DNA from: Labilibaculum manganireducens
GTDB lineage: Bacteria > Bacteroidota > Bacteroidia > Bacteroidales > Marinifilaceae
Direction: 5' to 3'
Length of the DNA: 48,756 nucleotides
Assembly (NCBI RefSeq): GCF_002843385.1
Contig: NZ_MVDE01000037.1
Span: 1 to 48,756, forward strand
Below the pieces are notes generated by a model that saw only the letters and a program-made list of their open reading frames with translations, did no database searches and had not been told where the DNA came from. The translations under genes were made by a program, and so were the position numbers. Positions within the stretch are counted from its first letter, which is position 1. Every line of letters starts with the position of its first letter. This document shows, in pieces, positions 3,170 to 30,542 of the stretch.

Positions 3170-3175
3170 AACCGG

Positions 3176-15199: not shown

Positions 15200-15996
15200 A
15201 ACATATTTTAATCAGCCTGTTTTGTCTTTTTGCAAGCATTGGTTTGGCAGGACAAAACAGGATCACCATCAATGTAAACAAAGTTGTTCACCTGATCTCA
15301 AAAGAGAAGGTCACTTACCTGCAGACAGGGAATCCAAATTTTGTGCTGGCAGAAATAGTACCGGAACACCCAAATCTTGTTCGAATCAAGGCAGTGGAAG
15401 TCTGTGAAGGAGAATCTTCAATAAGCCTGGTATCAGATGGCAAATTGTACTCCATTAGCTTAAACTATGGCGAACCCGGAGAGATTTCCTACCCGCTGGA
15501 TGGCTTTGATGCCATGAAGGCTGATCTTTATCAGGGAACCTTGATGAGCCTGGAAACCCTGAAGAAAAACTGCAGATACCTTCTCTCTCAAAAGAAGAAA
15601 CACATTCGAAAAAGTAAATCCGGAAAAGATGGAATCAACATTCAGATCAGAAACATCTTTCTGTTGAATGAAGCCCTGTTTTTTGAGCTGGAGATTGAGA
15701 ACAAAACCAATATGGGCTATGATGTGGAAAGCTTCCAATGGTGGATCGATGACAAAAAAAGGCTGAAAGCAAGCAATACACAGGAATACCGGATTCAACC
15801 CAAATTTCAATACCGTGGATTACAACGAATCCCTGCCAAAACCAAAGTGCGGGAGATCTTTGTCTTGCCAAAATTCACCATTCCCGGGAAACGTATTCTG
15901 CGAATTGAAATGCTTGAAAAGGCACTGGGCAATACCGGAAGAAAGCTTTCTGTGGAGCTTAAAAACAAACACATCCGAAGGGCTGAACGTTTATAA
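15196..15996 (+). CDS. traN: TraN, VirB9-like exported conjugation protein
   Basis: 266-aa exported protein (DUF4138 family). The start at 15196 gives a signal peptide (KHILISLFCLFASIGLAGQ) and couples to traM through an ATGA overlap. The mature domain includes LVRIKAVEVCEGESSISLVSDGKLYSISLNYG and the C-terminal beta-rich section FFELEIENKTNMGYDVESFQWWIDDKKRLK, both typical of TraN. TraO, TraP and TraQ, which follow TraN in CTnDOT, are absent here. Confidence 0.9.
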   Translation: MKHILISLFCLFASIGLAGQNRITINVNKVVHLISKEKVTYLQTGNPNFVLAEIVPEHPNLVRIKAVEVCEGESSISLVSDGKLYSISLNYGEPGEISYPLDGFDAMKADLYQGTLMSLETLKKNCRYLLSQKKKHIRKSKSGKDGINIQIRNIFLLNEALFFELEIENKTNMGYDVESFQWWIDDKKRLKASNTQEYRIQPKFQYRGLQRIPAKTKVREIFVLPKFTIPGKRILRIEMLEKALGNTGRKLSVELKNKHIRRAERL

Positions 15997-16021
15997 TATC
16001 CAACAAAAGAAAGGAGTAAAG

Positions 16022-17962
16022 ATGACTGGTGAATCAAGAGAACTGGTGAGACTGCATGAAGGATTTCGGTTCTTCTCTTATCTCTTGCTGATCATATCCC
16101 TGTATTTGAATCAAATCCTGTTTTTCAAAACCCTGGGAATATACATGATCGAATTGGAAGGGCTGATCACAAAACTGAAAAGCCTTGATTTTTTATCCCA
16201 TCCTGTCTGTTCAAAGACGGTTTGTATGGGCTTTTTGATGGTCACCTGTATCGGAACAAAAGCCAAAAAGGACAGGGACCTGAAAATTTCCGCTTTGCTG
16301 TATCAACTCCTGTTTGGCCTTTTGCTTTACTGGGGAAGTCTGCTGATTGCAAAATGGCAGGCAGGCCTGTATTTGCTTTTCTCCTTTTGGGGCTTTGTAG
16401 TACTGAACATCGCTTTTGACAATATTTCCAAACTAATCAATGTAAACCTGATGAAAGACCGTTTTAATCACGAAAATGAAAGCTTTGCCCAGGAAGAGGA
16501 ATTGAAGGAAAACGAGTACTCCGTGAACCTGAAAAGCAAATATCAGCTTCAGGGCAAGGAACATGACGGCTGGATCAATGTGATCAATCCCTTTCGGGGA
16601 AGCATGGTGATTGGAACCCCCGGATCAGGAAAATCCTTTTCCGTAGTCCTTCCCTTTATCAGACAACACCTGGGAAAAGGCTTTTCCATGTGCATTTATG
16701 ATTTTAAGTTTCCCGATCTCTCGGAAGTCACCTACAATCATTTTCTGAAAGCCAAAAAGAGAGGAAGACTGCCTGAAAAGTCTGCCTTTTACATCATCAA
16801 TTTTGATGACATCACCAAATCATACCGATGCAATCCACTGGCACCTGAATTTTTGGAAAGCCCCATTGATGCCTTTGAATCTTCCCGGACGGTGTTGTAT
16901 AACCTGAACCGGGAATGGATCCGCAAACAGGGAGAGTTCTTTTCCGAATCCGCAGTCTCCTTTTTTGCAGCCGTCATCTGGTTTTTGAAGCGATATAAAA
17001 ACGGAGAGTATTGCACCTTGCCTCATGCCATAGAACTCCTGCAACTGGATTACGAGGATCTCTTTGAAGTACTTTCCCGGGAAAAGGATGTGGTCAACAT
17101 CATCAACCCTTTTATCAATGCACATCAAAGAGGAGCCCATGAGCAGCTGGAAGGTCAGTTGGGTAGTCTGAAAATTGCCATTTCCAAGATCATCAGCAAG
17201 GAAATCTACTGGATCTGTTCCGGTAACGACTTTTCACTGGACATAAACAATCCCAGTCAGCCCAAAGTGCTTTGCCTGGCCAACAATCCCCTTCGCATTG
17301 AAATGTATGGAGTGGTTTTGTCCCTTTTTATCACCAGGATGCTTAAAGTAATCAACCGCAAAGGACAGCACAAATCATCATTGATTTTTGATGAGCTGCC
17401 TACTATCTATTTCCGGGGACTGGATACCCTGATTGCCACAGCGAGAAGCAACAGGATTTCAACCTTACTTGGTATTCAAACCATCGATCAGTTGATCCGG
17501 GACTATGGCAAGGAGCAGGCCAATGCCATTCTGACCAACATCGGAAACATCTTTGCCGGTCAGTCTGTTGGGGAAACGGCTAAATTCATACAAAACAGGA
17601 TGGGTAAAATCCTGCAGGAACGGCAATCCGTCAATATCAACCAGAATTCCCAATCCACCTCCTTTTCCACACAAATGGATTTTCTGGTGCCGGAAGGAAA
17701 GGTTGCCATACTGCCACAGGGCTGTATGGTGGGGCAGGTCGCTGATAATTTTGGACAGCAGATCAGGCAAAAGAATTTCAACAGCCTGATTCATGTGGAT
17801 ACAGAGCAGGTGGAGAGAGAAGAAAAGAACCACAAGAAGATACCAAATATTTACCAGTTTGATGACCTGGACAAAGTTATGGAAAACAACCGCACCGGAA
17901 TCTGTAACGACATTCAAAAGATTCTGATTGAATGCAAGATCAACAACAAACAGCAATTGTAA
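16022..17962 (+). CDS. Type IV coupling protein (VirD4/TraD-like; MobC of CTn)
   Basis: 646-aa coupling ATPase that delivers the relaxase-DNA complex to the transfer channel. The start at 16022 (MTGESRELVRLHEGFR) is chosen because the upstream part of the open frame overlaps traN. The N-terminal ~150 residues contain about four membrane segments. The ATPase domain has Walker A VIGTPGSGKSFS (about residue 200) and Walker B SLIFDELPT (about residue 453), with the ATARSNRISTLLGIQTIDQL motif of the TraG/VirD4 family. It lies 25 bp after traN, so the coupling protein is part of the tra operon. Confidence 0.93.
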   Translation: MTGESRELVRLHEGFRFFSYLLLIISLYLNQILFFKTLGIYMIELEGLITKLKSLDFLSHPVCSKTVCMGFLMVTCIGTKAKKDRDLKISALLYQLLFGLLLYWGSLLIAKWQAGLYLLFSFWGFVVLNIAFDNISKLINVNLMKDRFNHENESFAQEEELKENEYSVNLKSKYQLQGKEHDGWINVINPFRGSMVIGTPGSGKSFSVVLPFIRQHLGKGFSMCIYDFKFPDLSEVTYNHFLKAKKRGRLPEKSAFYIINFDDITKSYRCNPLAPEFLESPIDAFESSRTVLYNLNREWIRKQGEFFSESAVSFFAAVIWFLKRYKNGEYCTLPHAIELLQLDYEDLFEVLSREKDVVNIINPFINAHQRGAHEQLEGQLGSLKIAISKIISKEIYWICSGNDFSLDINNPSQPKVLCLANNPLRIEMYGVVLSLFITRMLKVINRKGQHKSSLIFDELPTIYFRGLDTLIATARSNRISTLLGIQTIDQLIRDYGKEQANAILTNIGNIFAGQSVGETAKFIQNRMGKILQERQSVNINQNSQSTSFSTQMDFLVPEGKVAILPQGCMVGQVADNFGQQIRQKNFNSLIHVDTEQVEREEKNHKKIPNIYQFDDLDKVMENNRTGICNDIQKILIECKINNKQQL

Positions 17963-17984
17963 TAATCATTAAAATTTTAAGACA

Positions 17985-18659
17985 ATGGAAATGGAACAAA
18001 CAACACGGATTGCCAAAGATGAAATCCCTTTTGAAAAATTGGAGAAGGTAGGCATCAAAAGAGATTTTGTAGACCGAATGGAAAGTCAGGAATTGAAAGA
18101 TTTTTTAAATGGTTTTCGATCAGCTAAACTCTATACGGTAAATGCTAAAATCAATGAGGAAAACTTTCGGATTCCCACGAAAATTCGCCTGCAAAAACTG
18201 GAGAATGGAAGCGTGAACATTAAAGTGCATCCCATTCAAAGATTACATATCCCGGAGGAATATATGCAGCACAAATTTACCAAGCAGGAAAAAACAGCCT
18301 TACTTGAAAACAGGAATCTGGGTAAAACTTTAGAATTAAAAGGAAGAGATGGAAAGAAGGATCATTATTATCTGTCCATAGATCCCAAAACCAATGAACT
18401 GATTCCACTTCGGACAAAACACATTCGGGTACCGGAGAAAATAAAAGGAGCTTCTTTATCAGAAGAGCAAAAACAGAAACTGGCAGCAGGAAAGAAAATC
18501 ACTTTGGATGGGATGACCGGGAAGAATGGCAAAAAGTTTTCAGCATCTCTCCAGGTAGATGCCGCCAACCGAAGCATTAATTTTTCCGGATTCAAGCAGG
18601 AGAAAGAACTGGAGCAAAAAGCCGAAAAGAAGAAAGGAGCCAAACAGAAAGTTGGTTAG
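17985..18659 (+). CDS. DUF3945-like ICE accessory protein
   Basis: 224-aa hydrophilic, Lys-rich protein. It contains two repeats of a small module with similar layout, KFTKQEKTALLENRNLGKTLELKGRDGKK near residue 95 and LSEEQKQKLAAGKKITLDGMTGKNGKK near residue 165 (split here for reading), the pattern found in DUF3945/DUF4099-type proteins of Bacteroidota mobile elements. The family often accompanies topoisomerase and mobilisation genes. Biochemical function is unknown. It is 22 bp after the coupling-protein gene. Confidence 0.7.
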   Translation: MEMEQTTRIAKDEIPFEKLEKVGIKRDFVDRMESQELKDFLNGFRSAKLYTVNAKINEENFRIPTKIRLQKLENGSVNIKVHPIQRLHIPEEYMQHKFTKQEKTALLENRNLGKTLELKGRDGKKDHYYLSIDPKTNELIPLRTKHIRVPEKIKGASLSEEQKQKLAAGKKITLDGMTGKNGKKFSASLQVDAANRSINFSGFKQEKELEQKAEKKKGAKQKVG

Positions 18660-18787
18660 AAAAATGAAGGTACTTGAGTTCGTTTGAGGAAGATCGTTCC
18701 AACGAATGGGAGGCCTTCCTTTTTTTAAGAATATAAAACCACAAAACAGACTTAAAAAGAATCTGTAAAGAGAGGCATGCAAGATGT

Positions 18788-18806
18788 GTTTTTGTAATAC
18801 AAAAAC
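18788..18806. repeat. 8-bp inverted repeat upstream of mob genes, oriT candidate
   Basis: GTTTTTGT (18788-18795) and ACAAAAAC (18799-18806) form a perfect 8-bp dyad around AAT, 75 bp before the MobC-like start. In Bacteroidota mobilisable elements the transfer origin usually lies immediately upstream of the mob genes and carries such an inverted repeat beside the nick site. The nick site itself is not recognisable, so this is a candidate only. Confidence 0.35.
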
Positions 18807-18881
18807 TCTTGTGCCTTCTGGCAGGAACCTTTCATCTCAGATGAAAAGCTTGATTCTGCGAAGGCTAATAAATGAAAAGAT

Positions 18882-19259
18882 ATGAGACCCAAAACAGCAG
18901 ATCATGATAAATTGGGTGAAGGGGTTCGGATTCGATTGACGGAACTGGAAAAGAGATTGCTGTTGAAAAGATCTCAGAAGGAAGGCTATCGGACCATTAG
19001 TGATTTTTGCAGGGCAAAGCTGGTTAAGAAACGGGAAATCAAAAAAATAGAGGTCAGCAAAGAATTTGTGATGATTACCAAAAAGCTGGACTATGATCTC
19101 AATAAAATTGGCGTGAATCTTAACCAGGTTTCCAGAAACATTAACGCTCAACATGTTTATCAATTCACAGCTTCAGATCGAGACGTTTTTATGAAGGTTT
19201 TGCAAGAACTTCGAAATTGTTTTTCAGTTTTGCAGAATTACATGGATATGATAGAATAA
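18882..19259 (+). CDS. MobC-like relaxosome accessory protein (ribbon-helix-helix)
   Basis: 125-aa protein beginning MRPKTADHDKLGEGVRIRLTELEKRLLLKRSQ. The N-terminal RIRLTELEKRLL...GYRTISDFCRAKL is a ribbon-helix-helix DNA-binding segment, and the C-terminus contains DLNKIGVNLNQVSRNINA, the MobC signature (often NLNQIARKAN). Such proteins bind oriT and help the relaxase nick. It precedes the relaxase by 17 bp, forming a standard mobilisation pair. Confidence 0.85.
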   Translation: MRPKTADHDKLGEGVRIRLTELEKRLLLKRSQKEGYRTISDFCRAKLVKKREIKKIEVSKEFVMITKKLDYDLNKIGVNLNQVSRNINAQHVYQFTASDRDVFMKVLQELRNCFSVLQNYMDMIE

Positions 19260-19276
19260 AGCTAAAAGTCTTTCAC

Positions 19277-20185
19277 ATGGTCATTGTGATCCATCAAACC
19301 GCAAGTACTGATAATGCTTTTCTTTATAATGAGAAGAAAGTGGAGGAGAAGCATGCTACATTTTTCCATAGTCGAAACACCAAAGCTATTAACCCCTTTT
19401 TATACGATAAAAAGCACCGTTTAAAAGAGTTTACAGATATTGAAAAGCTAAATCCTCGGGTTAAGAATAAATGTCTTCATATCTCCTTTAATCCATCTAC
19501 AGATGATTATCTAAAATTAGGTGATAAGATAATTCGGGAGGAGATGGATAAGCTGATGCAGCATATGGGCTATGGTAATCAGCCTTACTTTATCTACAAG
19601 CATAAAGATTTGGATAGAGTCCATTTTCATATCGTTTCATCAAGAATTGATCGTCATACAGGCAAGAAAATCAAAGATAATCATGAGAGACAAAAGGTTC
19701 AAAACTTCATAAAGGAATTAGAGCTTAGACATCAGTTGGATAATAAAAATATGATTGAGAAAGCGGTATTCAAGTTCTCAGCACGAAGTAGAAATATCAA
19801 GCAAAGCCTAGAACATCTTTTTTATCATTTGAATCAACTGGACATGTTGCAATCTAAAGAGCAGTATGAGCAGTATCTGAAGCTCTTCAATGTAGAAATT
19901 AGAAAATCGGGAAGAGGGCATATCGTTGTCGTTACTGATGGGAATGGTAAAGTGATTCGTTATCCGATTCGATTGTCAAAATTCAAAGAACAACCCAAAT
20001 TCTATCAGAAACAAAAAGAAAAGGTTGATAAGAATGAGCACATATCAGAAGAAAGAAAGCTCAGAAAGGCCGGCTTCAAAACAGATTTTTTGAAAGAACT
20101 GCTTTGGCAGATTAGAAAGAGAGATCAAAATCAAGAGCTAAAGAAAGAGTATCGTGTGAGAAGCAAGAGAAAGAAGAAGAGGTAG
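19277..20185 (+). CDS. MOB-family relaxase
   Basis: 302-aa DNA relaxase that nicks oriT and leads the strand into the recipient. Start at ATG 19277. Motif I tyrosine is probably Tyr17 in AFLYNEKKVEEKHATFFHS. The metal-binding histidines lie in KDLDRVHFHIVSSRIDRHTG (motif III, about residues 112-131). A basic C-terminus (KKEYRVRSKRKKKR) follows. It is somewhat shorter than many Bacteroides MobB relaxases and carries no helicase domain. Its codon use is more AT-rich than the tra genes, like the cargo that follows. Confidence 0.88.
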   Translation: MVIVIHQTASTDNAFLYNEKKVEEKHATFFHSRNTKAINPFLYDKKHRLKEFTDIEKLNPRVKNKCLHISFNPSTDDYLKLGDKIIREEMDKLMQHMGYGNQPYFIYKHKDLDRVHFHIVSSRIDRHTGKKIKDNHERQKVQNFIKELELRHQLDNKNMIEKAVFKFSARSRNIKQSLEHLFYHLNQLDMLQSKEQYEQYLKLFNVEIRKSGRGHIVVVTDGNGKVIRYPIRLSKFKEQPKFYQKQKEKVDKNEHISEERKLRKAGFKTDFLKELLWQIRKRDQNQELKKEYRVRSKRKKKR

Positions 20186-20308
20186 AAAATGGTATTTTTC
20201 TATACTATCTTGCAAAGAGAAAAAGTTATTTCCGATTTTTCTTTTGAGCTAAATAATGGCTCCAAAAAAATCAGAATAACTTTACTTACACACGTTATGC
20301 GATACTGC

Positions 20309-20662
20309 TTAAAATTCCTTTAAGAGCATTTCAAGACGCTTGAATTGCTCTTGATAAATCGTAAACTTATCATAAATATAGACATTAGGGTTATTATCTT
20401 GAGCAACTCGCCTTTTTGTTTTTTGGCTTAAAAAATATTCACAGATATATTTCAATCGTCCTAGTTTTTCTTTATCAGAGATTTCTTCAATCATATCTAA
20501 TGCGAGAGTGTTCATATCTTCTGCTAATTGTTTTGGAATACCTCTAACAAACCCTGTAGGGTTGACCATTATATCAACTTTACTTTTTTTCAAACATTTA
20601 TTCAAATAACTTTGATACATTAGTATTTCAAACTTTTCTTTTTCTTCTTTTGTCAGAATCAT
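20309..20662 (-). CDS. Hypothetical 117-aa protein downstream of qatD
   Basis: Hydrophilic, helical 117-aa protein with no signal or membrane segment (MILTKEEKEKFEILMYQ ... LEMLLKEF). It follows the Qat operon in the same direction, about 160 bp after the qatD stop, and converges with the relaxase gene. It may be independent of Qat or an accessory gene. No family is recognised. Confidence 0.5.
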   Translation of the reverse strand: MILTKEEKEKFEILMYQSYLNKCLKKSKVDIMVNPTGFVRGIPKQLAEDMNTLALDMIEEISDKEKLGRLKYICEYFLSQKTKRRVAQDNNPNVYIYDKFTIYQEQFKRLEMLLKEF

Positions 20663-20823
20663 ATCTTTTACTATTTATGGATACTATGCTTAATGCTTGT
20701 ATATCTGAACAGTAATAAAATCAAACTAGTATTTTGCCTCCTTCCTATAATATATACTGTCCTAAAACAAGTGCTCTTTTCTAAATACCTCTAATTATTG
20801 AGAATTGGATTGTGAGATACCGA

Positions 20824-21552
20824 TCATTGTATAAGAGCTTTAAAATTATTCCAAAGAATTGTTTGCATTGCTATATAATCTTGATTCAAAACAATTGCTA
20901 ACTCTTTGACGATATTATTAATGTTTATAGGAGTAAAAGGTTTATCATTATACTTTACAAATGGAGCGTCAGTTTCCAATAGTAATCTTTCTAAAGGAAT
21001 CATTTTAATTAATTCTTTGCCAGAATTAGAATTTACCATTGAGTAGTTTATAGAAAAGTAATACCCATTTTCAATAGCTTGTTCAAGTATTGTTTTATTA
21101 CCTGAATACCAATGCAAAATTATTTTACCATTAAAATTTCCACCAATAATAGATACGACTTCTTTAGAACTCATTCTTGAATGAATAGTCAATATCTTAT
21201 TCCCTATAATATTACAGCGATCAATGAGTTCTGTAAAAAAAGAAATTTGCAAATCTTTAGACCCCTTACTAGTTTTAAAATCCAAACCTACCTCACCTAT
21301 ATATTTTGCCTCATTAAGTAATGTCCACATTTGAGGAATATGATGCTCATATTGAGATAACAATTCAGGATGAAAGCCCAATGCAGGTCTAATATACTTA
21401 CTTGATAAACTGTTCTTTAGTTTAGTATATAGAATAGGTAAGTTAGTAACTGCTATTGTGTAAATTTCATTTTGATCAATCTCTCTGATAATTTCTTTCG
21501 ATGATTTGAATAAATCTAAATGAAAATGAGTGTCGTATAAATGATTAGCCAT
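20824..21552 (-). CDS. qatD: QatD, TatD-like metal-dependent DNase of the Qat defence system
   Basis: 242-aa TIM-barrel hydrolase of the TatD family. Metal ligands are visible in order: YDTHFHLD (His9, His11), YIGEVGLDF (Glu), ILTIHSRMSS (His), KIILHWYSG (His) and LLLETDAPF (Asp). It is last in the qatABCD operon and overlaps qatC by 8 bp. In the described Qat system the nuclease is required for phage protection. The neighbours distinguish it from housekeeping TatD. Confidence 0.92.
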   Translation of the reverse strand: MANHLYDTHFHLDLFKSSKEIIREIDQNEIYTIAVTNLPILYTKLKNSLSSKYIRPALGFHPELLSQYEHHIPQMWTLLNEAKYIGEVGLDFKTSKGSKDLQISFFTELIDRCNIIGNKILTIHSRMSSKEVVSIIGGNFNGKIILHWYSGNKTILEQAIENGYYFSINYSMVNSNSGKELIKMIPLERLLLETDAPFVKYNDKPFTPININNIVKELAIVLNQDYIAMQTILWNNFKALIQ

Positions 21553-22840
21553 TGTACTTATCTAATAATGTAGTTAGTTCATTCATGCCTCTTCTATACA
21601 ACTTTTTAAAATTATCTTGATTTGAGGCTATGGGACCAGATTCTTGAATTTTAAAAGAAGTATTAGAATTGGTTGTTTTATAATCAAGGATTCCAATTTT
21701 GTAAGAATTTAACTCAGTAACTGCTTTACCAATATTAAAGTCTTTATCTCGATAAACAGAACTATCTGCTCCATAGGCTTTTTCAATTGATGCCCTTCTA
21801 ATAATACAAGGCAAACAAGTACCACAATGAGATGGTGCATTCTCCCTTTGGTAACGACCTAAATCAGGATGTGAACAAGACATAGTTTTAGTAATATTCC
21901 TTTTAATGAAAGCTGGCACTTTACAATTTTGAATCATCTCTCCTTTAGTAAAGAATTGATATGGGTTTACTAATTCAATCTTAATATCCATATTTGTAAG
22001 CAATAGTTGTAATAGATTCATATAATATGGGTGAGTTGTTCTAGTACTACTACTACCTAGTCGAGTATTTGTAAGTGGTATATTTAACGAAATCAATCCG
22101 TTTTCAGGAATATAAAGTTTTATATCTTTATCAACTGCTGAAGCTAGAATAATAGCATGTGCAAAAAACATAAAGGAGCGGGTTCTTGTTGAATCCTCAA
22201 TACCTTTTATTGGAGCTGCAAAGAAGTTGAAAAATTGCTTTTCATCTAAGTCAAATTCTTTTGTAAGTTCTGACTTTACATTGTTTTGATATTCAAGTAC
22301 ACCTTTGCCACCACCATAGTGTCCTACGAAGGCAATGTTTTTATTTTCACTCAATAAATCTATTGCACCGATAAAAGAGTCGAGTCCGCCAGATAGCATA
22401 CAAAAAGCATCAGGAGAATACTTCTTTTTTGTTTTTATAATACCAGCTGATACCTTTTTCTCTTTTTCATTTAATTCTCTTTTTCTAAATTCAAATTGCC
22501 ATATATCACCACTTAAAAAAGAAATCATTTTTTCAAGTAAAAACTTGTTTTCATTCCATTTATCGAGCTCTAATACAGGCATGTAAATTTTCATTTCTCT
22601 GGTCCAAGCATCATAAGTACCACTTCTTAATACTTTACGGTCAGCATAATATACCATTAAAGAAATGTAAAATAAATCGAGAGCCTCATTTGAAAAGAAT
22701 TTAGGAAATTGAAAAAGCCTTCTATAATATTGATAAAATGTCCAATGGTATGATTTTTTATCTGTTAGGTTGACTTCAAAGACAGATCTATCCACAGAAA
22801 AGTCATCACTATTATTCAATTTGCAAACCATATGATTCAT
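21545..22840 (-). CDS. qatC: QatC, QueC-like enzyme of the Qat defence system
   Basis: 431-aa protein with a QueC-like PP-loop ATP pyrophosphatase core: FCMLSGGLDSFIGAIDLL (SGGxDS motif, about residues 148-155). A C-terminal Cys cluster (CSHPDLGRYQ...HCGTCLPCIIRR) matches the zinc site of QueC. It is nearly twice the length of QueC, with an additional N-terminal domain of about 140 residues as in QatC. It overlaps qatB by 4 bp and qatD by 8 bp. QueC makes the 7-cyano-7-deazaguanine nucleobase; the QatC substrate is inferred to be related, possibly acting on QatB. Confidence 0.93.
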   Translation of the reverse strand: MNHMVCKLNNSDDFSVDRSVFEVNLTDKKSYHWTFYQYYRRLFQFPKFFSNEALDLFYISLMVYYADRKVLRSGTYDAWTREMKIYMPVLELDKWNENKFLLEKMISFLSGDIWQFEFRKRELNEKEKKVSAGIIKTKKKYSPDAFCMLSGGLDSFIGAIDLLSENKNIAFVGHYGGGKGVLEYQNNVKSELTKEFDLDEKQFFNFFAAPIKGIEDSTRTRSFMFFAHAIILASAVDKDIKLYIPENGLISLNIPLTNTRLGSSSTRTTHPYYMNLLQLLLTNMDIKIELVNPYQFFTKGEMIQNCKVPAFIKRNITKTMSCSHPDLGRYQRENAPSHCGTCLPCIIRRASIEKAYGADSSVYRDKDFNIGKAVTELNSYKIGILDYKTTNSNTSFKIQESGPIASNQDNFKKLYRRGMNELTTLLDKYNG

Positions 22841-23700
22841 AGCATATCCTCCATTACTTTATAGCATTGATTATATAGGCTTTCCACCTCTTTACTTACA
22901 TTTCCATTAAAATCAATTTGTGAGAAATCATTACCTTTTAGGGTCGTTTCCACTTTAGAATTAATATATTCTTTTAGTTCCTTTTCTTTGCTAATTGCAT
23001 CTGCTGGAGAAGATGATTTAGTTTCAATTCGACTGCCTAAATCATTAATTATACGCTCATATATGTATGATTCTATTTGAATTGGAATCATATCATTCAA
23101 TAGCTCTTTATCAATTTTATCTAATGTAGAAATATCTTTGTTTTCATCATCAATTCTTTCGTAAAGAACCTCCATTGTTCTAATTATAGCTTTTCTCGCA
23201 ACAGAGTCTTCTTTAGTTACAGGTACTGGTGCTAAACGGTTAATTACATCATTCAGAATATCCTTTGCAGCCCTTCCTTCATAATCAATTTTATATTGAG
23301 ATAATGTTTCTCTAATTCCTTGATTAGAACTATTGATTAAGAACTGTCCGAAACTTGCAGTTGATTTAATACCACTCGAAGCTGATTTTGCTGCTCTTTT
23401 CGCACCACCATGAGCTTTTACGTAAGTTGCAACTGCTCTCTTATAGTTGTTTGAAGTTCCTGATGCGTATCGAGACATATTTTTCTTAGCTGTACTCCAG
23501 CTAGAATCAATATTATTTGAGTTTTGTTGATTCTCTTGGCCATCATCACCATTATCAGATTCATCATTCCCGTTTTGAGTTTCTTCATTTGATTCTTGTG
23601 GATTATCACTTTCCGGTGAATCAGGGAATGAAGTATCTTCAAAATCATCTGGTAATAGAGGATTGCCAGAGGGACCATTGTACATGCTTGAGGTTCCCAT
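22837..23700 (-). CDS. qatB: QatB of the Qat defence system
   Basis: 287-aa protein. The N-terminus MGTSSMYNGPSGNPLLPDDF is the hallmark of QatB, with Gly after Met. It is followed by an acidic, Asn/Glu/Asp/Gln-rich disordered stretch (about residues 20-68). Then comes a conserved segment TAKKNMSRYASGTSNNYKRA with Gly/Ala/Lys-rich continuation (GGAKRAAKSASSGIKSTASF), and a helical C-terminal half. No enzyme motif is visible. Located 7 bp after qatA and overlapping qatC by 4 bp. The free Gly2 after Met removal may be the acceptor of a QatC-dependent modification (inference). Confidence 0.9.
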   Translation of the reverse strand: MGTSSMYNGPSGNPLLPDDFEDTSFPDSPESDNPQESNEETQNGNDESDNGDDGQENQQNSNNIDSSWSTAKKNMSRYASGTSNNYKRAVATYVKAHGGAKRAAKSASSGIKSTASFGQFLINSSNQGIRETLSQYKIDYEGRAAKDILNDVINRLAPVPVTKEDSVARKAIIRTMEVLYERIDDENKDISTLDKIDKELLNDMIPIQIESYIYERIINDLGSRIETKSSSPADAISKEKELKEYINSKVETTLKGNDFSQIDFNGNVSKEVESLYNQCYKVMEDML

Positions 23701-23707
23701 ATTATAA

Positions 23708-25519
23708 TTATTTTAATTCAATACTAATAGCGTTTTTCAATCTAGGATTATCTTTCTTCCATTTTCCAAGTAGCTCATTTATTTCTGTTGTTTTATTTGC
23801 GATAGTAGCAAACTCTTTAATACGCGGAATAAATGAGGCCTTAACAATATTACTCGGTATAGCATTTAAACAGACTACCGTTTCCGTATAGATTTCCTCT
23901 CGACTCCCCCCCCAAGAAATAAACGACTTAAACAAATCGGCAGAAATATCTGAGGCAATTTCTATTTCTGAAATAATTGCTTTAAGAACTTGTATTGCCT
24001 CAAAATCACTAATCTGTTTAGCTTTCTTAAGAGATTCTCCTCTTGCAGAATCACTACCCGATAATAATCCTTTCAATATGTTTTCGGCTTCAAAGCTTAG
24101 TTGTTGAATTTCTGAAGTACTCCTTAATTGAAGACTTTCTCGTGAAAAATAAAAGTATGGTTGCAAATTGATTCCACTCAACTTTGGTTCTATTTTTATC
24201 CAATTGATAAACCAATCATCATCTTTCCACAGCTTAAGTTTGTCGACCACATCCCATTCATCATTTTCAATTGATTTTATTTCTCCTGGCAACCCCTTTT
24301 CAATTGATTGCATTTCACCTAGCTCTTTGAATACATTATCTTTGAAATATTCAAGCAGCATCAGTTTCGATAAAACTCTCTTATCCAAATCTATCCCTTT
24401 TATTCTTGCCATTGTAATTCGCATAGAAAGTGAATTCAAAAAGCGTTTACAATGCCTAGGATTGCCATTCAATCCCTTTGAGAGTACCCCTGATAATTGG
24501 TTAGATAAAGCAATTACCTCTTTTAGTTTTTCTTCAATTACAGGGAATTTACCTTCAATTAAGCTAAATGACATTGAAAAGTTTAAGAAATCTTTTTGCC
24601 TTTCTTCTTGAATAAATTTCAAAACATCAACATGTTTTTCTTTTAATTCGAACTTTAATAAAAGACACATAATATAAAACTGTACTTCTTTATATCCAAG
24701 CTGTGGTATTTTAACAGGATATTGAATTATTTTCTCCAAGTATTCTTTACTTATGTCTATGTGATTTCCTTTTATTTCAGGGAACTTTTTACGAACAGCA
24801 TACATTACTTGACGCTCATCAGAACCAATTATAAATGAAGTCCCTTTGGCAAAAAGGAATAGACGAATAGCTTCGAAAGTTTCAAGTATTGTATCTGGAT
24901 TACATCTATCTAATTCGTCAATGAATACAACTAACCTTTTAATCTCTGTTTTCTCGAGTAATTCAGCGAAATCACTATGAAATGATTTCAGGTTCTTTCT
25001 TATTTCATCACTTTTAAGAGTTTTTCCAAGAACTCCTTTTATATCTTCTTCGGAAATATCTCCTGCTTTTTCTTTTGCTTTGGATAAAACTGATTGCAAG
25101 GTTATATCTGCAATGGTTCCAATACCTCCAGTCAACATAAAATCTAGCCCATATTTAGCCCCCTTGCTAGCGAGTTTAAAAAAATCAATGTTTTTGTATA
25201 ACCTTTCAATAATATCTTTCGCGTTATTAGCAGTAGTTACCTTTTTGTTTATTTCATCTAATATTGTACCAATTAAAGCTGTTTTTGCATCCTCATATCC
25301 TTCAAATAACCAACCATTAAATTTTAAACACAAATAATCCTCGTTGCTTGATAATTCTTTTAAAGTCATCTCTATAAGACTTGATTTACCACTACCCCAA
25401 TCTCCATAGACTCCAATACTTGAAGGAGATAAATCATCGTTTTCAATGATATCTTTTGTTACACCTATTAAATAATCAAAATCTAATAGATCTATATTGG
25501 TTTCACTATCTTTCCACAT
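23708..25519 (-). CDS. qatA: QatA, KAP-family P-loop ATPase of the Qat defence system
   Basis: 603-aa ATPase of the KAP family. Walker A is YGDWGSGKSSLIEMTL (about residues 37-52) and Walker B is RLVVFIDELDRCNPDTIL (about residues 193-210), followed by the FIIGSDERQVMYAVRKKFP sensor region. The KAP membrane-type insertion lies between (ASKGAKYGLDFMLTGGIGTIADI). First gene of the operon qatABCD, transcribed leftward from the AT-rich region shared with the divergent abiE operon. In the family the ATPase is essential for defence; the phage trigger is unknown. Confidence 0.93.
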   Translation of the reverse strand: MWKDSETNIDLLDFDYLIGVTKDIIENDDLSPSSIGVYGDWGSGKSSLIEMTLKELSSNEDYLCLKFNGWLFEGYEDAKTALIGTILDEINKKVTTANNAKDIIERLYKNIDFFKLASKGAKYGLDFMLTGGIGTIADITLQSVLSKAKEKAGDISEEDIKGVLGKTLKSDEIRKNLKSFHSDFAELLEKTEIKRLVVFIDELDRCNPDTILETFEAIRLFLFAKGTSFIIGSDERQVMYAVRKKFPEIKGNHIDISKEYLEKIIQYPVKIPQLGYKEVQFYIMCLLLKFELKEKHVDVLKFIQEERQKDFLNFSMSFSLIEGKFPVIEEKLKEVIALSNQLSGVLSKGLNGNPRHCKRFLNSLSMRITMARIKGIDLDKRVLSKLMLLEYFKDNVFKELGEMQSIEKGLPGEIKSIENDEWDVVDKLKLWKDDDWFINWIKIEPKLSGINLQPYFYFSRESLQLRSTSEIQQLSFEAENILKGLLSGSDSARGESLKKAKQISDFEAIQVLKAIISEIEIASDISADLFKSFISWGGSREEIYTETVVCLNAIPSNIVKASFIPRIKEFATIANKTTEINELLGKWKKDNPRLKNAISIELK

Positions 25520-25900
25520 AAGGTTATTTTTGAATAAAGTCTCTGTCGTTTGCTTTGTATGTTGGCAGAGATAGTTTCACAAAACTCAATTCTCTTAGGT
25601 TAAACTCCCATCAGATTATCTTTTTTATTATCAAGGATCTATTCTTAGTAATCATAGGTATGAGAATTTGTATACTATAACATACAGAAGTCAAGTAAAG
25701 TTATTAAATATAATCTAAGATTAATACTGTCAAGTCTGTCAACTTTATTATATAGATAAATTATATTTAAAAGAGATCAGTATTTCTATAATGAATACCA
25801 TATTTTATGGTGATGTTTTTTTTTCATAAGTAGTATACTTTCGTAGTAAACAGCGATCTAGTAAATACAGTAATATTGTATATGAGATAGTTTTTTTATA
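25520..25900. other. AT-rich divergent regulatory region between qatA and abiEi
   Basis: Very AT-rich stretch with no ORF of coding character. It must hold the leftward qat promoter, but no clear TTTG / TAnnTTTG pair could be placed. The rightward abiE control sites lie at its right end (25906-25956). Confidence 0.45.
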
Positions 25901-25905
25901 CATTT

Positions 25906-25956
25906 GTTCACAAATATTAAACGTTCACGTTTCGTGAACACTATAAAATTGTGAAC
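25906..25956 (+). promoter_or_regulatory. Nested-dyad operator of the abiE operon
   Basis: Four copies of one hexamer are arranged symmetrically: GTTCAC at 25906-25911 and 25923-25928, and its complement GTGAAC at 25934-25939 and 25951-25956. Inner and outer pairs share the same centre at 25931, with start-to-start steps 17, 11 and 17. The inner pair extends to GTTCACG-TTT-CGTGAAC. The last copy abuts the abiEi ATG. AbiEi antitoxins are known to repress their own promoter by binding inverted repeats, so this is the probable autoregulatory site. Confidence 0.8.
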
Positions 25957-26925
25957 ATGGAATTTATTATCCAACAATTAACTCAGAATCTCATTGATAA
26001 TAATGGGATTCAAGCCTATTGGGAAAGTGGGAGGGACTTGGATGGGATATTATTTCTCAATACTCAAGGACATGAACTAAGTTGTATCATCGAAATAAAA
26101 CAAGAAATTCGACAGTATCAACTTGAAAGTATTCGATTAAACAATCAGAAATATGAGAACTATATGATTGTGGCTCACAGAATATTTCCGGAAGTAAAGA
26201 AGCAGCTGAGAAAACAGAATATTGCCTATCTGGAAGAATCTGGTAATCTATATTTGAGCAGAGGGGAAAAGCTGATTTGGATTGATACCAATAAAGTGAA
26301 GCCTGATACAAAATCAACAGGAAACAGAGCTTTTACAAAAACAGGGTTGAAAGTTCTATTTCAATTACTGATAAAAGAAAACTTATTAAACAAGACACAT
26401 CGTACTATTGCTGAAACCACCAATGTTGCATTAGGTAATATTCCTCAGGTGATAAATGGTTTGAAAGATACCGGTTTTGTTTTAAGACTTAACAAGAGGG
26501 AATTAATCTGGGACAATAAAAAAGAGTTGTTGGAGAGATGGATGACTGAATATGAAACTACCTTAAAGCCTATTATCTTTCGAGGAAAATTCAAATTTCG
26601 TAAAGATTGGCAAGAAATAGAGTTTGAGGACAATGAAACACTTTGGGGAGGTGAACCAGCAGGTGATATACTAACGCAATATCTGAGACCAGAAAAATTT
26701 ACGATTTATACTAAAGAAAGCGCTAATAATTTGATACGGAAGTATCATTTAGTTCCAGATAAAAATGGTAACGTAGAGGTATACGATATGTTTTGGGAAA
26801 ATAAAGAAACGAATAAAACGGTTCCTTACTTATTAGTTTATGCTGATTTGATCAGTCAAGACAATAAACGTTGCCGTGAAACAGCACAAATGATTTTTGA
26901 TGAATACATCCAACCAAACTTATAA
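25957..26925 (+). CDS. abiEi: AbiEi-family antitoxin of type IV toxin-antitoxin system
   Basis: 322-aa protein. The middle contains a winged helix (TKTGLKVLFQLLIKENLLNKTHRTIAETTNVALGNIPQVINGLKDTGF, about residues 125-175) that binds DNA, and the C-terminal domain is of the type that counters the partner. The N-terminal ~100 residues resemble a restriction-endonuclease-like fold (GILFLNTQGHELSCIIEIKQEIRQYQLE), found in related AbiEi proteins. I start at ATG 25957; a GTG two codons earlier is part of the operator. It overlaps abiEii by 26 bp. Named by family; the specific neutralising mechanism is inferred. Confidence 0.82.
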   Translation: MEFIIQQLTQNLIDNNGIQAYWESGRDLDGILFLNTQGHELSCIIEIKQEIRQYQLESIRLNNQKYENYMIVAHRIFPEVKKQLRKQNIAYLEESGNLYLSRGEKLIWIDTNKVKPDTKSTGNRAFTKTGLKVLFQLLIKENLLNKTHRTIAETTNVALGNIPQVINGLKDTGFVLRLNKRELIWDNKKELLERWMTEYETTLKPIIFRGKFKFRKDWQEIEFEDNETLWGGEPAGDILTQYLRPEKFTIYTKESANNLIRKYHLVPDKNGNVEVYDMFWENKETNKTVPYLLVYADLISQDNKRCRETAQMIFDEYIQPNL

Positions 26926-27739
26926 GGAGCTTGCAATACCTTATTTTAAAGAAGTATTTGATATTATTGATGAAGTAATGAGACTTCAAAAGATGCCTTA
27001 TTACTTGATAGGAGCCAATGCTATGGCTTTAGAGTTGTTAAAAAAAGGAATCCCACCTTGTAGAGGTACCAAGGATATCGATTTTGCTATTATGCTCTCT
27101 TCCCTCTCTGATTACGACGATTTAATTAATCTTTTAGAGGAAAGAGGATTTAATAGGGTGAAAGCACCTTGGACCGTTTATTCCGAAAAATTCAATGTTG
27201 CAATTGATATTCTTCCTTTTGGTGAAATTGAAGAGCATGATACGCAAGATTTTATTGATCGTAAATCCGATTTACATCTTGTAGGTTTTAAAGAAGTTCT
27301 GGCAGCCTCAACTCAAGTATTCATTGAGGATAAAATTGCTCAAATTCCACCATTACCTGGAATGGTAATTCTAAAGCTGGTCGCATGGAGTGATCGCCCT
27401 GAAGAAAGGGATAGTGATCTGTATGATATCTTAACGATAATTGAGCATTATTTTGATTTCAATTATGATGAGATCGTAGAGTTTCACAATGATACCTTTC
27501 CTGAAGGTGATAATGAATTTGATCAACTAAAAATTTCTGCTAGAATTTTAGGTCGAAAAACAAAGCAATTCCTTCAAAAGTCGGATCCACTTAAGGTAAA
27601 AATCATACAATTAATGGATGGGAATTTAATTTCACCCGAATCTTCTGTGATTGCTAGACATTGGACTTATGACCGTGAATGGGACATCGAATACGCCTAT
27701 CAAATCTTGCAAGAGTTAAAAAGAGGAATTTCAGAATAA
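26900..27739 (+). CDS. abiEii: AbiEii-family nucleotidyltransferase toxin
   Basis: 279-aa nucleotidyltransferase toxin. The fold motifs are YYLIGANAMALELL (G-x-A/S), TKDIDFAIML (catalytic DxD) and NVAIDILPF (third Asp). The conserved later block MVILKLVAWSDRPEERDSDLYDI is typical of AbiEii/AbiGii proteins. Toxins of this family transfer nucleotides to tRNA or otherwise arrest growth upon phage infection; the target of this protein is unknown. Translation is probably coupled to the antitoxin by the 26-bp overlap. It converges on the integrase gene. Confidence 0.88.
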   Translation: MNTSNQTYKELAIPYFKEVFDIIDEVMRLQKMPYYLIGANAMALELLKKGIPPCRGTKDIDFAIMLSSLSDYDDLINLLEERGFNRVKAPWTVYSEKFNVAIDILPFGEIEEHDTQDFIDRKSDLHLVGFKEVLAASTQVFIEDKIAQIPPLPGMVILKLVAWSDRPEERDSDLYDILTIIEHYFDFNYDEIVEFHNDTFPEGDNEFDQLKISARILGRKTKQFLQKSDPLKVKIIQLMDGNLISPESSVIARHWTYDREWDIEYAYQILQELKRGISE

Positions 27740-27770
27740 TATAAAATATTGTCTTTCCAGTAAAGGATCA

Positions 27771-27782
27771 TGTGATATCACA
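27771..27782. repeat. 12-bp perfect palindrome between abiEii and int
   Basis: TGTGATATCACA is a perfect palindrome in the 100-bp space between the convergent abiEii and integrase genes. It might be a protein-binding site or chance; no T-tract makes it a terminator. Confidence 0.4.
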
Positions 27783-27841
27783 ATAGAGTCTTAATAATTC
27801 ACTTATCTAACACAGGTTTATAGACTATGTGATAATTACTT

Positions 27842-29059
27842 TTATCGAAGCTTTCTTTTAAGTTTACTCATATCTTTGCTTACTTTTTCATTAACTACTT
27901 TTGAATAAATCTGAGTGGTACGAATATTCTTATGACCAAGCATTGAACTGATCGATTCAATGGGGACACCATTGGCAAGAGTAATTGTAGTAGCAAAAGT
28001 ATGCCTAGCGATATGAAAGGTTAAATTTTTATTAATTGATGCAAGATCCGCTAACTCCTTTAAATAAGCATTTAGTTTTTGGTTGCTAAAACTCGGGAAG
28101 ATATGATGCTCTGTTTTTTTAGCAGGATGATCGACATATTTCTTAATTAAATCGTGTGCTTGTGGAAGTATAGGGATATTTGATGGTGTTTTTGTTTTTT
28201 CGCGTTCCAACAAAATCCATAAATTGCCATCTATTCCAATTCGTATATTTTCCTTGGTAAGGTTTGAAACATCAATATAGGCTAGACCCGTATAGCATGA
28301 GAAAACAAAAATGTCTCTGACAACCTCTAATCGAGGAAAGGATAATTTTAGGTTTTCAAGTTTCTGTAATTCATCTTTAGTAAGGTATTCTCTTTTTACC
28401 TCTATTAATTTTGTTTGATATTTTGCAAATGGGTCTTTATCCAACCATTCATTTCTAATTGCAAGATTGATAACCTTGCGCATATTTTTCAAATATTTAT
28501 AGGTGCTGTTATTATTGCATTTTCTAACTGTTTTAAAATAGTGTTCAAAGTCAATGATAAATGAATATTTAAGACGTGTTAATGGGATATCATTTATTTT
28601 GTATTGATACTTTAGGAATCTTTTAACATGGTCAAGCGTCGTGATATATCTTTTTACAGTTGCTTCAGCATATGAAATGCCCTGCAATTCTTTTATTTGA
28701 TTGTTGTGATATTCAAAGACCTGGATTAAGGTTCTTTTGTTTTCCTCAATACCCAAAAAGCGAGCTTTTAACTTCTTTGCAGAGATTAGATCACCATTTT
28801 TAACCATCTCTGTGTGGTGGTCATAAATGCTATTTTTTAAGACATCCAAAAATTTATTGAGTTGTCCAGCACCTTTCTTCTTAGTTATAGCTTTACTGAG
28901 CTTGCTATCCCAGTCTTGAGGATTAATAGATCTACCTGTAGAGATTTCAACACGTTCATTGTCTATAGAGAAACGGATGTAAATAGGGGCTTCTCCGAGC
29001 TTATTAGATCTGTTTTTTCGAATGAGAAAACTAATGTTTAGTGTTGAAAATGTATTCAT
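27842..29059 (-). CDS. int: Tyrosine recombinase (ICE integrase, IntDOT-like)
   Basis: 405-aa site-specific recombinase with an arm-binding N-terminal domain (NISFLIRKNRSNKLGEAPIYIRF), a SAM-like core-binding domain (about residues 110-210) and a catalytic domain. Active-site residues: TGLAYIDVSNL where the first catalytic Arg is expected shows Ala260; then the Lys region EREKTKTPSNIPI, HIARHTFATT (His349, Arg352), LGHKNIRTTQ (His of the third box) and the nucleophile Tyr385 (QIYSKV). Absence of Arg I is typical of the IntDOT group. It is located at the element's right end, starting about 310 bp from tRNA-Ser. Confidence 0.93.
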   Translation of the reverse strand: MNTFSTLNISFLIRKNRSNKLGEAPIYIRFSIDNERVEISTGRSINPQDWDSKLSKAITKKKGAGQLNKFLDVLKNSIYDHHTEMVKNGDLISAKKLKARFLGIEENKRTLIQVFEYHNNQIKELQGISYAEATVKRYITTLDHVKRFLKYQYKINDIPLTRLKYSFIIDFEHYFKTVRKCNNNSTYKYLKNMRKVINLAIRNEWLDKDPFAKYQTKLIEVKREYLTKDELQKLENLKLSFPRLEVVRDIFVFSCYTGLAYIDVSNLTKENIRIGIDGNLWILLEREKTKTPSNIPILPQAHDLIKKYVDHPAKKTEHHIFPSFSNQKLNAYLKELADLASINKNLTFHIARHTFATTITLANGVPIESISSMLGHKNIRTTQIYSKVVNEKVSKDMSKLKRKLR

Positions 29060-29313
29060 ACTATGATATTATTATTAGATCATTCAGGGCAGTTTTTAGT
29101 AGGATTTGTAGGATTAAAGTGGTGATGTTTAGTAAATCTAATGAAAATTCAGCAGTTTTGAAAATATATTTTCAATCCTAATTTTATTTAAGCTGTTTTG
29201 ATTCAGTTTGTTATGATGAGATTGGTGAACAAAGTGGATTCTGAAATTTGTTCACCGTAGAGTACACCTTCCTATTGACTTTATATGTAATAGAATGAAA
29301 TGGCTGAAAATAG
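29060..29313. other. Region between integrase and tRNA-Ser
   Basis: No gene seen. This must contain the int promoter and, if the element inserted next to tRNA-Ser, the right attachment site. GTGAACAAAGTGGATTCTG (29226-29244) and a following TTTGTTCACCG form an imperfect inverted repeat. No duplicate of the tRNA 3' end is visible here or on the left side. Confidence 0.4.
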
Positions 29314-29347
29314 AAAAGACTGTAAATCAGTGGATTTACAGTCTTTT
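29314..29347 (-). terminator. Terminator of tRNA-Ser
   Basis: A 14-bp perfect inverted repeat, AAAAGACTGTAAAT (29314-29327) and ATTTACAGTCTTTT (29334-29347), with a 6-nt loop. Read leftward, it lies about 25 nt after the tRNA and ends in TTTT, a good intrinsic terminator. Being symmetric it can act in both directions and thus insulate int from the tRNA. Confidence 0.82.
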
Positions 29348-29370
29348 GGATTAGGATGATTCCTAAATTG

Positions 29371-29455
29371 CGGAGAGAGAGGGATTCGAACCCCCGGTAC
29401 GTTGCCGCACAATAGTTTTCAAGACTACCGCATTCGACCACTCTGCCATCTCTCC
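29371..29455 (-). tRNA. tRNA-Ser (UGA)
   Basis: The 85-nt minus-strand sequence folds as a class II tRNA: acceptor arms GGAGAGA and TCTCTCC plus discriminator G, anticodon loop CTTGAAA with anticodon TGA, long variable arm, and T-loop GGTTCGAATCC. The CCA tail is not encoded. The gene is complete. It is next to the integrase end of the ICE, a frequent kind of insertion neighbourhood. Confidence 0.95.
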
Positions 29456-29504
29456 AATATACTTTGAGCTCTAATTGCTCTGCTATCTCTTGTGATAACG
29501 GGTG

Positions 29505-29536
29505 CAAATGTAGAATAAAAAATACTTGCAGCCAAA
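29505..29536 (-). promoter_or_regulatory. Promoter of tRNA-Ser
   Basis: On the minus strand TTTG (29536-29533) is followed after 20 nt by TACATTTG (29512-29505), exactly the Bacteroidota consensus TTTG-N19-21-TAnnTTTG. The start of transcription would be near 29498, about 40 nt before the mature tRNA. Confidence 0.85.
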
Positions 29537-29600
29537 CATTATTTTACTTCAGAGAGTAATTTATTTGAAATAGCTTGATCTTCAATTCAATTATTTTTAA

Positions 29601-30542
29601 TTACCCATGAATATCCAACTCATTCATCATGTAAAGTGAGTGTTCAATCGTCTTAAAAATCTCCGGGCAGTATTCATTTACGGCTTTTGGACTGCCAGGC
29701 ATGGTATAAATTAGAGATTTATTCATAACACCTGCAATGCCGCGACTAACCAATGCATTTGGCTTTTCCATTCCATATTTTACCCGAATCAATTCCATAA
29801 TTCCGGTTATTTCTTTTGTGATGTGTTTTTTTACTACATCAGGCGTAATGTCATTTGGTCCAATCCCGGTACCACCTGTGGTGAAAACAAGATCGAAGTC
29901 CTCTTTTTTTGCTTTTTCCAGTAAATTGGTAAGATCAGATTCTTGATCAGGAATAATGAATTTTTCTATTTGATAATGGCGGTTTTTAGATTTGAAAAAC
30001 TCTTCAGCCATTTTCTCCAGTAACGGACCACTTTTATCTGCATATTCACCTCGGCTGGCTCTGTCGCTAAGAGTGATTACCATGGTTTTTATTACTCTAG
30101 GATGATAGCAAAGAACATCACCGGCTTTTAAATTACCTCCGTTTAAAACTCTGCAAAAAATGCCTTCTTTTGGCATTACACAGTTTCCTATTTCGCGAAA
30201 AATACTGCAATTGTCACCGTGACATTTTTTTCCAATTTGAGTCACTTCCAAAATTATGTCACCTATATGGAAACGATCAAGCGGAGCAGTCAGATGAAGT
30301 AAAAGTCCTTCGGTGGTGATATTCTCGGCAAATTCTCCAAAATTGATATTGCGTTTGGCTTGTACCGAAAATTTGTCGATACTTTCTTTGGCCAGCAAGC
30401 TAACCTGACGGTGCCAATTTCCCGAATGAGCATCATTTACAACACCAAGTGAATTCAATTCTATGGAATCAACAGGCTTTTTGATCACGCCTTTTTTTTC
30501 AGATATATTTACAGAGAGTACTGATACTTCTTTTGTGCTCAT
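29601..30542 (-). CDS. MOSC domain-MogA/MoaB fusion, molybdopterin adenylyltransferase
   Basis: 313-aa protein made of two units. Residues about 1-148 are a MOSC domain (SLLAKESIDKFSVQA...GEFAENITTEGL, with CHGDNCSIF cysteines for sulfur handling). Residues about 150-313 are a MogA/MoaB-type domain (VITLSDRASRGEYADKSGP, FTTGGTGIGPNDITPD) that adenylylates molybdopterin before metal insertion. The MOSC part may carry sulfur for or sense the cofactor; that is inference. It is last gene of the moco operon, 12 bp after moaC. Confidence 0.9.
   Translation of the reverse strand: MSTKEVSVLSVNISEKKGVIKKPVDSIELNSLGVVNDAHSGNWHRQVSLLAKESIDKFSVQAKRNINFGEFAENITTEGLLLHLTAPLDRFHIGDIILEVTQIGKKCHGDNCSIFREIGNCVMPKEGIFCRVLNGGNLKAGDVLCYHPRVIKTMVITLSDRASRGEYADKSGPLLEKMAEEFFKSKNRHYQIEKFIIPDQESDLTNLLEKAKKEDFDLVFTTGGTGIGPNDITPDVVKKHITKEITGIMELIRVKYGMEKPNALVSRGIAGVMNKSLIYTMPGSPKAVNEYCPEIFKTIEHSLYMMNELDIHG

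Follow-up and report, generated by a model that had tools for sequence, protein, structure and literature searches.

A 48,756-nucleotide stretch of Labilibaculum manganireducens DNA (contig NZ_MVDE01000037.1; hereafter the window) carries a complete qatABCD operon, a predicted anti-phage system. With a probability of roughly 0.93, we read this operon and an adjacent AbiE-type gene pair as exchangeable cargo, held in the slot between the relaxase and integrase genes of a CTnDOT-like conjugative element by a tRNA-Ser gene, with the operon working by the published Qat mechanism. Anti-phage function is predicted here from the genes, their order and their conserved residues.

A complete qatABCD operon

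The ORF (open reading frame) listing gives four complete minus-strand ORFs at 20824–25519, in the order qatA-qatB-qatC-qatD:

23708–25519, minus strand: qatA, KAP-family P-loop NTPase (603 aa; PF07693, 157.2 bits; NF041923, 467.1 bits, cut-off 600)
22837–23700, minus strand: qatB, partner and putative substrate of QatC (287 aa; NF041924, 103.3 bits, cut-off 100)
21545–22840, minus strand: qatC, enlarged QueC-like PP-loop enzyme (431 aa; NF041925, 460.6 bits, cut-off 280)
20824–21552, minus strand: qatD, TatD-family nuclease (242 aa; NF041926, 236 bits, cut-off 230)

An initial annotation made from the letters alone had named a KAP ATPase, QatB, a QueC-like enzyme and a TatD-like nuclease, and the ORF listing with PADLOC and NCBIfam reproduces its span and order exactly. 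The single operon that it had proposed is also borne out at the junctions, where qatA and qatB are separated by 7 bp, qatB and qatC overlap by 4 bp, and qatC and qatD overlap by 8 bp. A check for broken frames found none in the four genes. The E-values for QatA, QatB, QatC and QatD are 2.4e-122, 1.4e-37, 2.7e-118 and 1.1e-66 with PADLOC, and 1e-139, 1.5e-29, 4e-138 and 3.1e-70 with NCBIfam, whose curated cut-offs are passed by QatB, QatC and QatD. By sequence, the solved structures nearest to the window QatC are those of QatC (9vlk, E 3.5e-70; 9zee, E 6e-70), and those nearest to the window QatB are of QatB (9vll, E 3.5e-12; 9zee, E 1.2e-11).

The operon was said to be more AT-rich than the transfer (tra) genes. 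This is correct, with a GC content of 31.1% against 42.1%, but it is a weak sign of separate origin, as the integrase gene is nearly as AT-rich at 32.2%. The relaxase region, the AbiE pair and the right chromosomal flank have 35.7%, 34.1% and 36.8% GC, respectively.

The slot between relaxase and integrase

As annotated, the operon lies between the relaxase gene (19217–20185) and the integrase gene (27842–29059). The DNA at 15800–29360 was searched for matches in the own genome and nine relatives, the 30 best of 86–163 first-look candidates being scored per genome. The coupling-protein and relaxase part has long matches of 72–82% in five of the nine relatives (G050, G051, G053, G055 and G061), and the integrase end has long matches in six (G050, G051, G052, G053, G054 and G056). 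The qat/AbiE segment at 20319–27826 has no DNA match above 100 bp in any of the nine, the longest being a 96-bp match between qatA and abiEi. Because the transfer and integrase parts recur in relatives without a DNA match to this segment, the qat operon is read as cargo.

The content of the slot differs among relatives, being qat with AbiE here, recBCD in one and a transposase piece in another. After mobB, G053 (locus L155) has recD, recC and recB genes above the NCBIfam cut-offs, and G050 has a piece of a Mutator/IS256-type transposase. G051 has a different AbiEi/AbiEii pair after its integrase, which is 92% identical to that of the window. Incidentally, the recDCB genes of L155 are followed by ORFs resembling GTPases and nucleases; some kb past mobB, G055 has ORFs read as sulfate/siroheme genes, and G061 has capsule-like genes, which are possibly chromosome.

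Besides qat, the slot contains the following features:

25951–26925, plus strand: AbiEi-like antitoxin/regulator, second cargo module (PF09952, 101.3 bits, cut-off 21)
26897–27739, plus strand: AbiEii-like nucleotidyltransferase (PF08843, 23.9 bits, cut-off 22.5)
20309–20662, minus strand: 117-aa ORF downstream of qatD, with sub-threshold Pfam matches only
20222–20314, no strand assigned: remnant resembling an IS256-family element end, on the relaxase side of the cargo

Copies of the remnant (88–93 bp, 88–89% identity) are found in five of the ten stretches read from the own genome and relatives. In L147 and L151 they directly adjoin a transposase-like ORF, which in L147 is an IS256-family transposase (409.5 bits, cut-off 150). 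A tblastn search of the 80 kept QatC loci described below gave no match to the 117-aa ORF at E 1e-8. Just upstream of the AbiEi-like gene, 25905–25957 forms an imperfect inverted repeat (72% over 53 bp, GTTCACG...CGTGAAC type), possibly the operator of that gene.

The conjugative carrier

The window contains the following carrier features:

3224–4057, plus strand: RteC-family regulator, CTnDOT type (PF09357, 217 bits)
8118–10562, plus strand: TraG-type (VirB4-like) conjugation ATPase (PF19044, 463.2 bits)
11973–15996, plus strand: TraJ-like protein (PF07863, 22.5 bits, below the cut-off of 28.4), TraM (PF12508, 129.5 bits) and TraN-like DUF4138 protein (PF13595, 148.7 bits)
15815–17962, plus strand: type IV coupling protein (T4CP; PF02534, PF14293 and PF12696); coordinates of the ORF as listed, the real start probably being later
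18882–20185, plus strand: relaxosome accessory protein (under the Pfam cut-offs) and MobB-type relaxase (PF03432, 87 bits, cut-off 24.6)
27842–29059, minus strand: tyrosine integrase of the element (PF00589, PF13102 and PF17293); the 92%-identical protein of G051 is in L157
29370–29455, minus strand: tRNA-Ser(TGA), likely attachment site

Integrase, relaxase, coupling protein and mating-pair genes are thus present together in the window, and by gene content the carrier is a CTnDOT-like conjugative element adjoining tRNA-Ser.

Conserved residues and the proposed mechanism

Residues were compared in nine-row alignments, for QatC consisting of the window protein and eight plasmid QatCs (29–43% identical to it) and for QatD likewise; QatA was aligned too. 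The catalytic motifs, annotated as intact, are present in all three enzymes. QatA keeps Walker A (GDWGSGKS) and Walker B (VVFIDELDRC) in its translation and alignment. QatD has invariant H9, H11, E87, H124, H147 and D195, which we take to be the TatD metal-site residues. QatC had been described as an enlarged QueC-like PP-loop enzyme with a cysteine cluster, and at 431 aa it has, invariant in the alignment, S150-G-G-L-D-S155, T266-R267-T268, H270-P271 and the cysteines C322, C339, C342 and C345.

These residues can be compared with the Pseudomonas aeruginosa system, as described in passages of PMC13279940. There, the ATP-loop serines and T278/T280 of QatC are essential for defence, four cysteines bind Zn, and a Thr motif stands where QueC has its substrate-holding Tyr/Asp pair. 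From the numbering around the conserved THP, we read T266/T268 of the window as the probable counterparts of T278/T280, and C322, C339, C342 and C345 are, by the same analogy, candidate Zn-site cysteines. The window QatB begins with MGTS, the characteristic start already pointed out in the initial annotation; in P. aeruginosa QatB this motif is essential, and G2D abolishes defence (PMC13279940).

The mechanism proposed here is carried over from the P. aeruginosa system, which has been solved and mutated (PMC13279940), and from the residues conserved in the window copy. The same passages report that QatB and QatC form a 1:1 complex sufficient for defence against some phages, that QatA binds DNA, and that QatA and QatD affect phage range. 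By analogy, three steps could proceed. First, upon removal of Met1, the flexible QatB tail would put Gly2 into the QatC active site. Second, QatC, using ATP with its SGGLDS loop, would attach a chemical group to Gly2. Third, the QatB so modified would block the phage, while QatA as a DNA-binding NTPase and QatD as a TatD-type nuclease would broaden the phage range. Modification of the QatB N-terminus by QatC is the most likely course judged from the P. aeruginosa system; the reaction is termed proposed carboxydeazaguanylation in passages of PMC13329287.

Relatives of the Qat system

A scan of genome contigs with a QatC alignment gave at least 593 pattern matches, among which the best 80 of 233 related loci were kept, and genes in them were called with profiles from plasmid alignments. 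The near-identical QatC pairs L021/L025, L055/L056 and L059/L060, which may reflect very recent transfer or contamination, were left in the counts. All four genes lie on one strand in 70 of the 80 loci, and their order is A-B-C-D in all 70, some having a split gene (L029, L070 and L092). Among the other ten, seven are cut near a contig end and three (L037, L066 and L090) are not. The split genes include a Chryseobacterium QatC in two ORFs (L092) and a Sporofaciens musculi QatA in three pieces beside single-frame QatB, QatC and QatD (L029).

SGGxDS occurs in QatC of all 80 loci, and STRT in 79 (exception, L054). A loose GTS-type QatB start, defined as M/V/L-G-T/S-S/T in the first 200 residues of an open frame, occurs in 76, although in L070 only within a piece of a split gene. 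The exceptions are L014, whose QatB is cut by the contig end, L087, and the stretches of L042 and L048, in which QatB is absent.

In a tree of 88 QatCs, the window protein groups with those of Flexibacter sp., Cloacibacterium and two Bacteroidales bins (5 rows, 100/99). The next set out has 10 rows, eight labelled Bacteroidota and two unlabelled (99/99), and a wider set has 21 rows, with nine Bacteroidota, nine Bacillota and three unlabelled (100/100). The highest identity to the window QatC in the tree is 62%. In an even draw of 395 Bacteroidota genomes, QatC scores above the cut-off in 13, one of them the own genome, and any match at E 0.001 occurs in 27. QatC matches occur in 125 of 72,556 plasmid records, which are typed as conjugative (39), mobilizable (18) or non-mobilizable (68), and in two of 50,697 phage records, both of Listeria phages (27.6% identity over 71% of the query). 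One QatC scan of viral contigs gave five pattern matches and no relatives.

Synthesis of carboxydeazaguanine in QatC hosts

If the Qat system works in cells that make no 7-carboxy-7-deazaguanine (CDG), the deazaguanylation model taken from type IV CBASS (cyclic oligonucleotide-based anti-phage signalling system) cannot be general. CDG synthesis was surveyed in QatC-bearing genomes only. The own genome and 50 of the 80 loci, picked before any result (35 records that are isolates or isolate-like, plus the 15 bins at the top of the list), made 51 genomes, and dropping L086 left 50. A QueE was called from a TIGR03365 match that starts at or before model position 12 with at least 34 bits, or from the partial gene at a contig start in G045, a criterion fixed after the scores were seen.

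QueC scores above its cut-off in 29 of the 50 genomes, a PTPS/QueD-type protein is present in 33, and QueE in 31. In the 19 QueE-negative genomes, TIGR03963 and TIGR04349 were also run and gave weak matches only (≤55 bits). In 12 of the 50, none of QueC, QueD-type protein and QueE was detected; these are Petrocella, Streptohalobacillus, Peptoniphilus catoniae, Sporofaciens musculi, Ruminococcus bromii, Pseudochrobactrum and six bins. Petrocella and Streptohalobacillus count as one lineage because their QatCs are almost identical. Each of the six isolates has undivided reading frames for QatB, QatC and QatD; in Sporofaciens, QatA is in three pieces.

To check the negative calls, 17 proteins were taken: the one to three strongest QueE-like matches from each of the 12 genomes, and one from G005. 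The best NCBIfam model is not QueE for any of the 17. Thirteen pass the cut-off of another enzyme (PFL-activating enzyme, NrdG, NrdG2, MoaA or NirJ1), and four pass none. For comparison, the QueE of the window host has QueE models as its top five, at 122.9 bits and under their cut-offs.

With TIGR03365, TIGR03963 and TIGR04349, QueE was possibly missed in proteobacterial genomes that have QueC but no QueE call. For a type IV CBASS (Cap9) comparison, a scan of QueC proteins gave one PADLOC model, PDLC00911, which also matches canonical QueC. QueC without a QueE call or a PTPS match is seen in L161 (Pseudomonas kuykendallii), L162, L163 and L166 (Hoylesella, Prevotella and a Prevotellaceae bin for the last three). 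In L161, there is no ORF of at least 90 aa between queC and the gene before it.

In the window host, QueE is encoded at L099:4825–5478 and a QueD-type protein at L100:4592–5038, so CDG should be made there; its genome has no QueC above the cut-off. QueE and a QueD-type protein without QueC above the cut-off also occur in Flexibacter sp., Cloacibacterium, Aquimarina, Algoriphagus, Chryseobacterium and one Bacteroidales bin.

Because 12 of 50 QatC-bearing genomes lack detectable QueC, QueD-type protein and QueE, host-made CDG may not be the co-substrate. We give even odds to the proposition that QatC does not use CDG as Cap9 and QueC do, and instead joins some other, more general metabolite to the N-terminus of QatB. 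Its ground is that qat operons, whose QatB and QatC are whole in most cases, occur in several separate lineages in which none of the three proteins was detected, and it would fit the Thr replacement of the Tyr/Asp pair (PMC13279940). On the other hand, 31 of the 50 hosts have QueE, and the negative genomes could possibly be accounted for by CDG salvage from neighbours, inactive passengers, missed genes or genome completeness. The passages of PMC13329287 on QueE and CDG do not treat hosts without the pathway.

The same genomes bear on whether the window operon itself is an inactive passenger, with intact genes but silent in its host for want of a co-substrate or a promoter. Systems in genomes without detectable CDG synthesis could be of that kind. 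In the window, all frames are intact, the essential residues are conserved, and the host has the QueE and QueD-type genes with which CDG should be made, so that a silent operon is rather improbable.

Points against the reading, and the ends of the element

Several points weigh against an operon of the Qat type carried as exchangeable cargo. First, QatA scores under its NCBIfam cut-off, although QatA is still its best match over residues 1–591. The window protein is on this score a divergent QatA, and the miss reflects the threshold of one database rather than a property of the system; of eight plasmid loci read, four likewise have a gene in the qatA position that is not named QatA. Second, P17-D-D-F20 of the window QatB replaces the P16-x-W18 of P. 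aeruginosa, so the tails are not equal residue for residue; the close relatives L013, L020 and L030 have P-x-D-F/Y. Third, the QatC reaction was not reconstituted in vitro, and CDG was absent from the crystal, according to passages of PMC13279940. Fourth, because the slot comparison was made at the DNA level with the 30 best candidates per genome, it could have overlooked a divergent copy of qat in one of the relatives.

Fifth, no direct attachment (att) repeat appears, as 29100–29460 has no exact match of 14 bp or longer elsewhere in the window. Between 2400–5040 and 29060–29470, three exact 10-mers are shared, and neither a 14-mer with up to one mismatch nor an 18-mer with up to three occurs. 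Those 10-mers, and two overlapping 14-mers at 6213 that match the tRNA with two mismatches, are taken as chance. Sixth, the left flank is itself accessory: apart from its own copy, matches above 66 bp occur across the own genome and nine relatives only in G054 (452 and 297 bp) and at a second own-genome site (346 bp). The left end of the element is therefore probably off the contig. At the contig's left end, 201–3169 contains a GH3-like glycosidase gene (by reading of the ORF) and MGS-like genes, which may belong to the mobile region because they have no long match in eight of nine relatives.

On the right side, when 29360–31900 was searched in 20 relatives, nine had long matches (eight of the same genus and one of the same family), and in seven of the nine homology to the window stops at 29359–29370, the tRNA 3′ end. 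In the remaining two, L107 is cut by a contig end, and the homology in L111 continues to 29267 because its genome, G054, carries the same integrase end there. Beside the tRNA, G051 has another integrase (394 aa, 42% identical; L119), and G055 and G056 have integrase fragments. From these data, we infer attachment at tRNA-Ser.

With the left end and att repeats not found, qat could instead occupy a fixed place in the chromosome, with unrelated conjugative genes as its neighbours. The recurrence of the integrase end and transfer backbone in same-genus genomes without a qat DNA match, and homology that begins at the tRNA-Ser 3′ end in seven of nine relatives, make this very improbable. As for the separately acquired, transferable immunity of the initial annotation, cargo status is upheld by the comparison with relatives, with the AbiE pair sharing the slot; because the left end and a direct repeat were not found, we infer the completeness and transferability of the element.

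That qatC and qatD are housekeeping queuosine and DNA-repair genes adjacent by chance is barely conceivable. The Pfam QueC domain (29.3 bits, cut-off 22, over 73 residues) and TatD_DNase domain are detected in the two proteins, and a replacement role is imaginable in a host without canonical QueC above the cut-off. However, QatC scores 460.6 bits with its own model against 16.5 with the canonical QueC model TIGR00364 (cut-off 150.3) and has the Thr motif for the Tyr/Asp pair, so it is not a canonical QueC by either measure; a QatC failed to complement the loss of E. coli queC (passages of PMC13329287), and the Qat gene order holds in 70 of 70 four-gene loci. The TatD family model TIGR00010 likewise gives QatD 127.7 bits (cut-off 206). 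Comparison with Qat profiles, which the initial annotation had suggested, thus assigns the QueC-like protein to QatC and the TatD-like protein to QatD, outside the housekeeping families, and the housekeeping identity was rejected on profile scores.

Comparison with known systems

The window operon is by its genes an intact, ordinary Qat system. With the qatABCD operons of P. aeruginosa and E. coli (passages of PMC13279940 and PMC13329287), it has in common the gene order, the four protein families, the QatB MGTS, the SGGxDS and T-R-T motifs, the Zn cysteines and the enlarged QatC. It differs from them in its QatA, which is under the NCBIfam cut-off, and in the QatB tail, with P-D-D-F instead of P-x-W/F.

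Qat on integrative and conjugative elements (ICEs) is already published. The qatABCD of Vibrio europaeus on ICEs and integrative and mobilizable elements (passages of PMC12824646) and the plasmid qat operons are likewise cargo of conjugative or mobilizable elements, whereas the present carrier is a CTnDOT-like Bacteroidota element with TraG/TraM/TraN-like proteins, RteC and a MobB-type relaxase. CTnDOT-type elements share with it RteC, TraG, TraM, the TraN-like protein, the coupling protein and the tyrosine integrase. Compared with them, the window relaxase is under the cut-off of the named MobB subfamily (116.4 against 400 bits), and its tRNA-Ser attachment is putative.

With type IV CBASS, in which Cap9 is paired with a CD-NTase (cGAS/DncV-like nucleotidyltransferase), the proposed common principle is that a QueC-family enzyme acts on its partner's N-terminal glycine (passages of PMC13279940). 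In contrast to CBASS, the operon has no CD-NTase gene among its ORFs, and Thr residues of QatC stand in place of the CDG-holding Tyr/Asp pair. The window operon is a further mobile qat system, carried by a conjugative element of Bacteroidota, and the wider point is a genome-level argument on which group QatC attaches to QatB.

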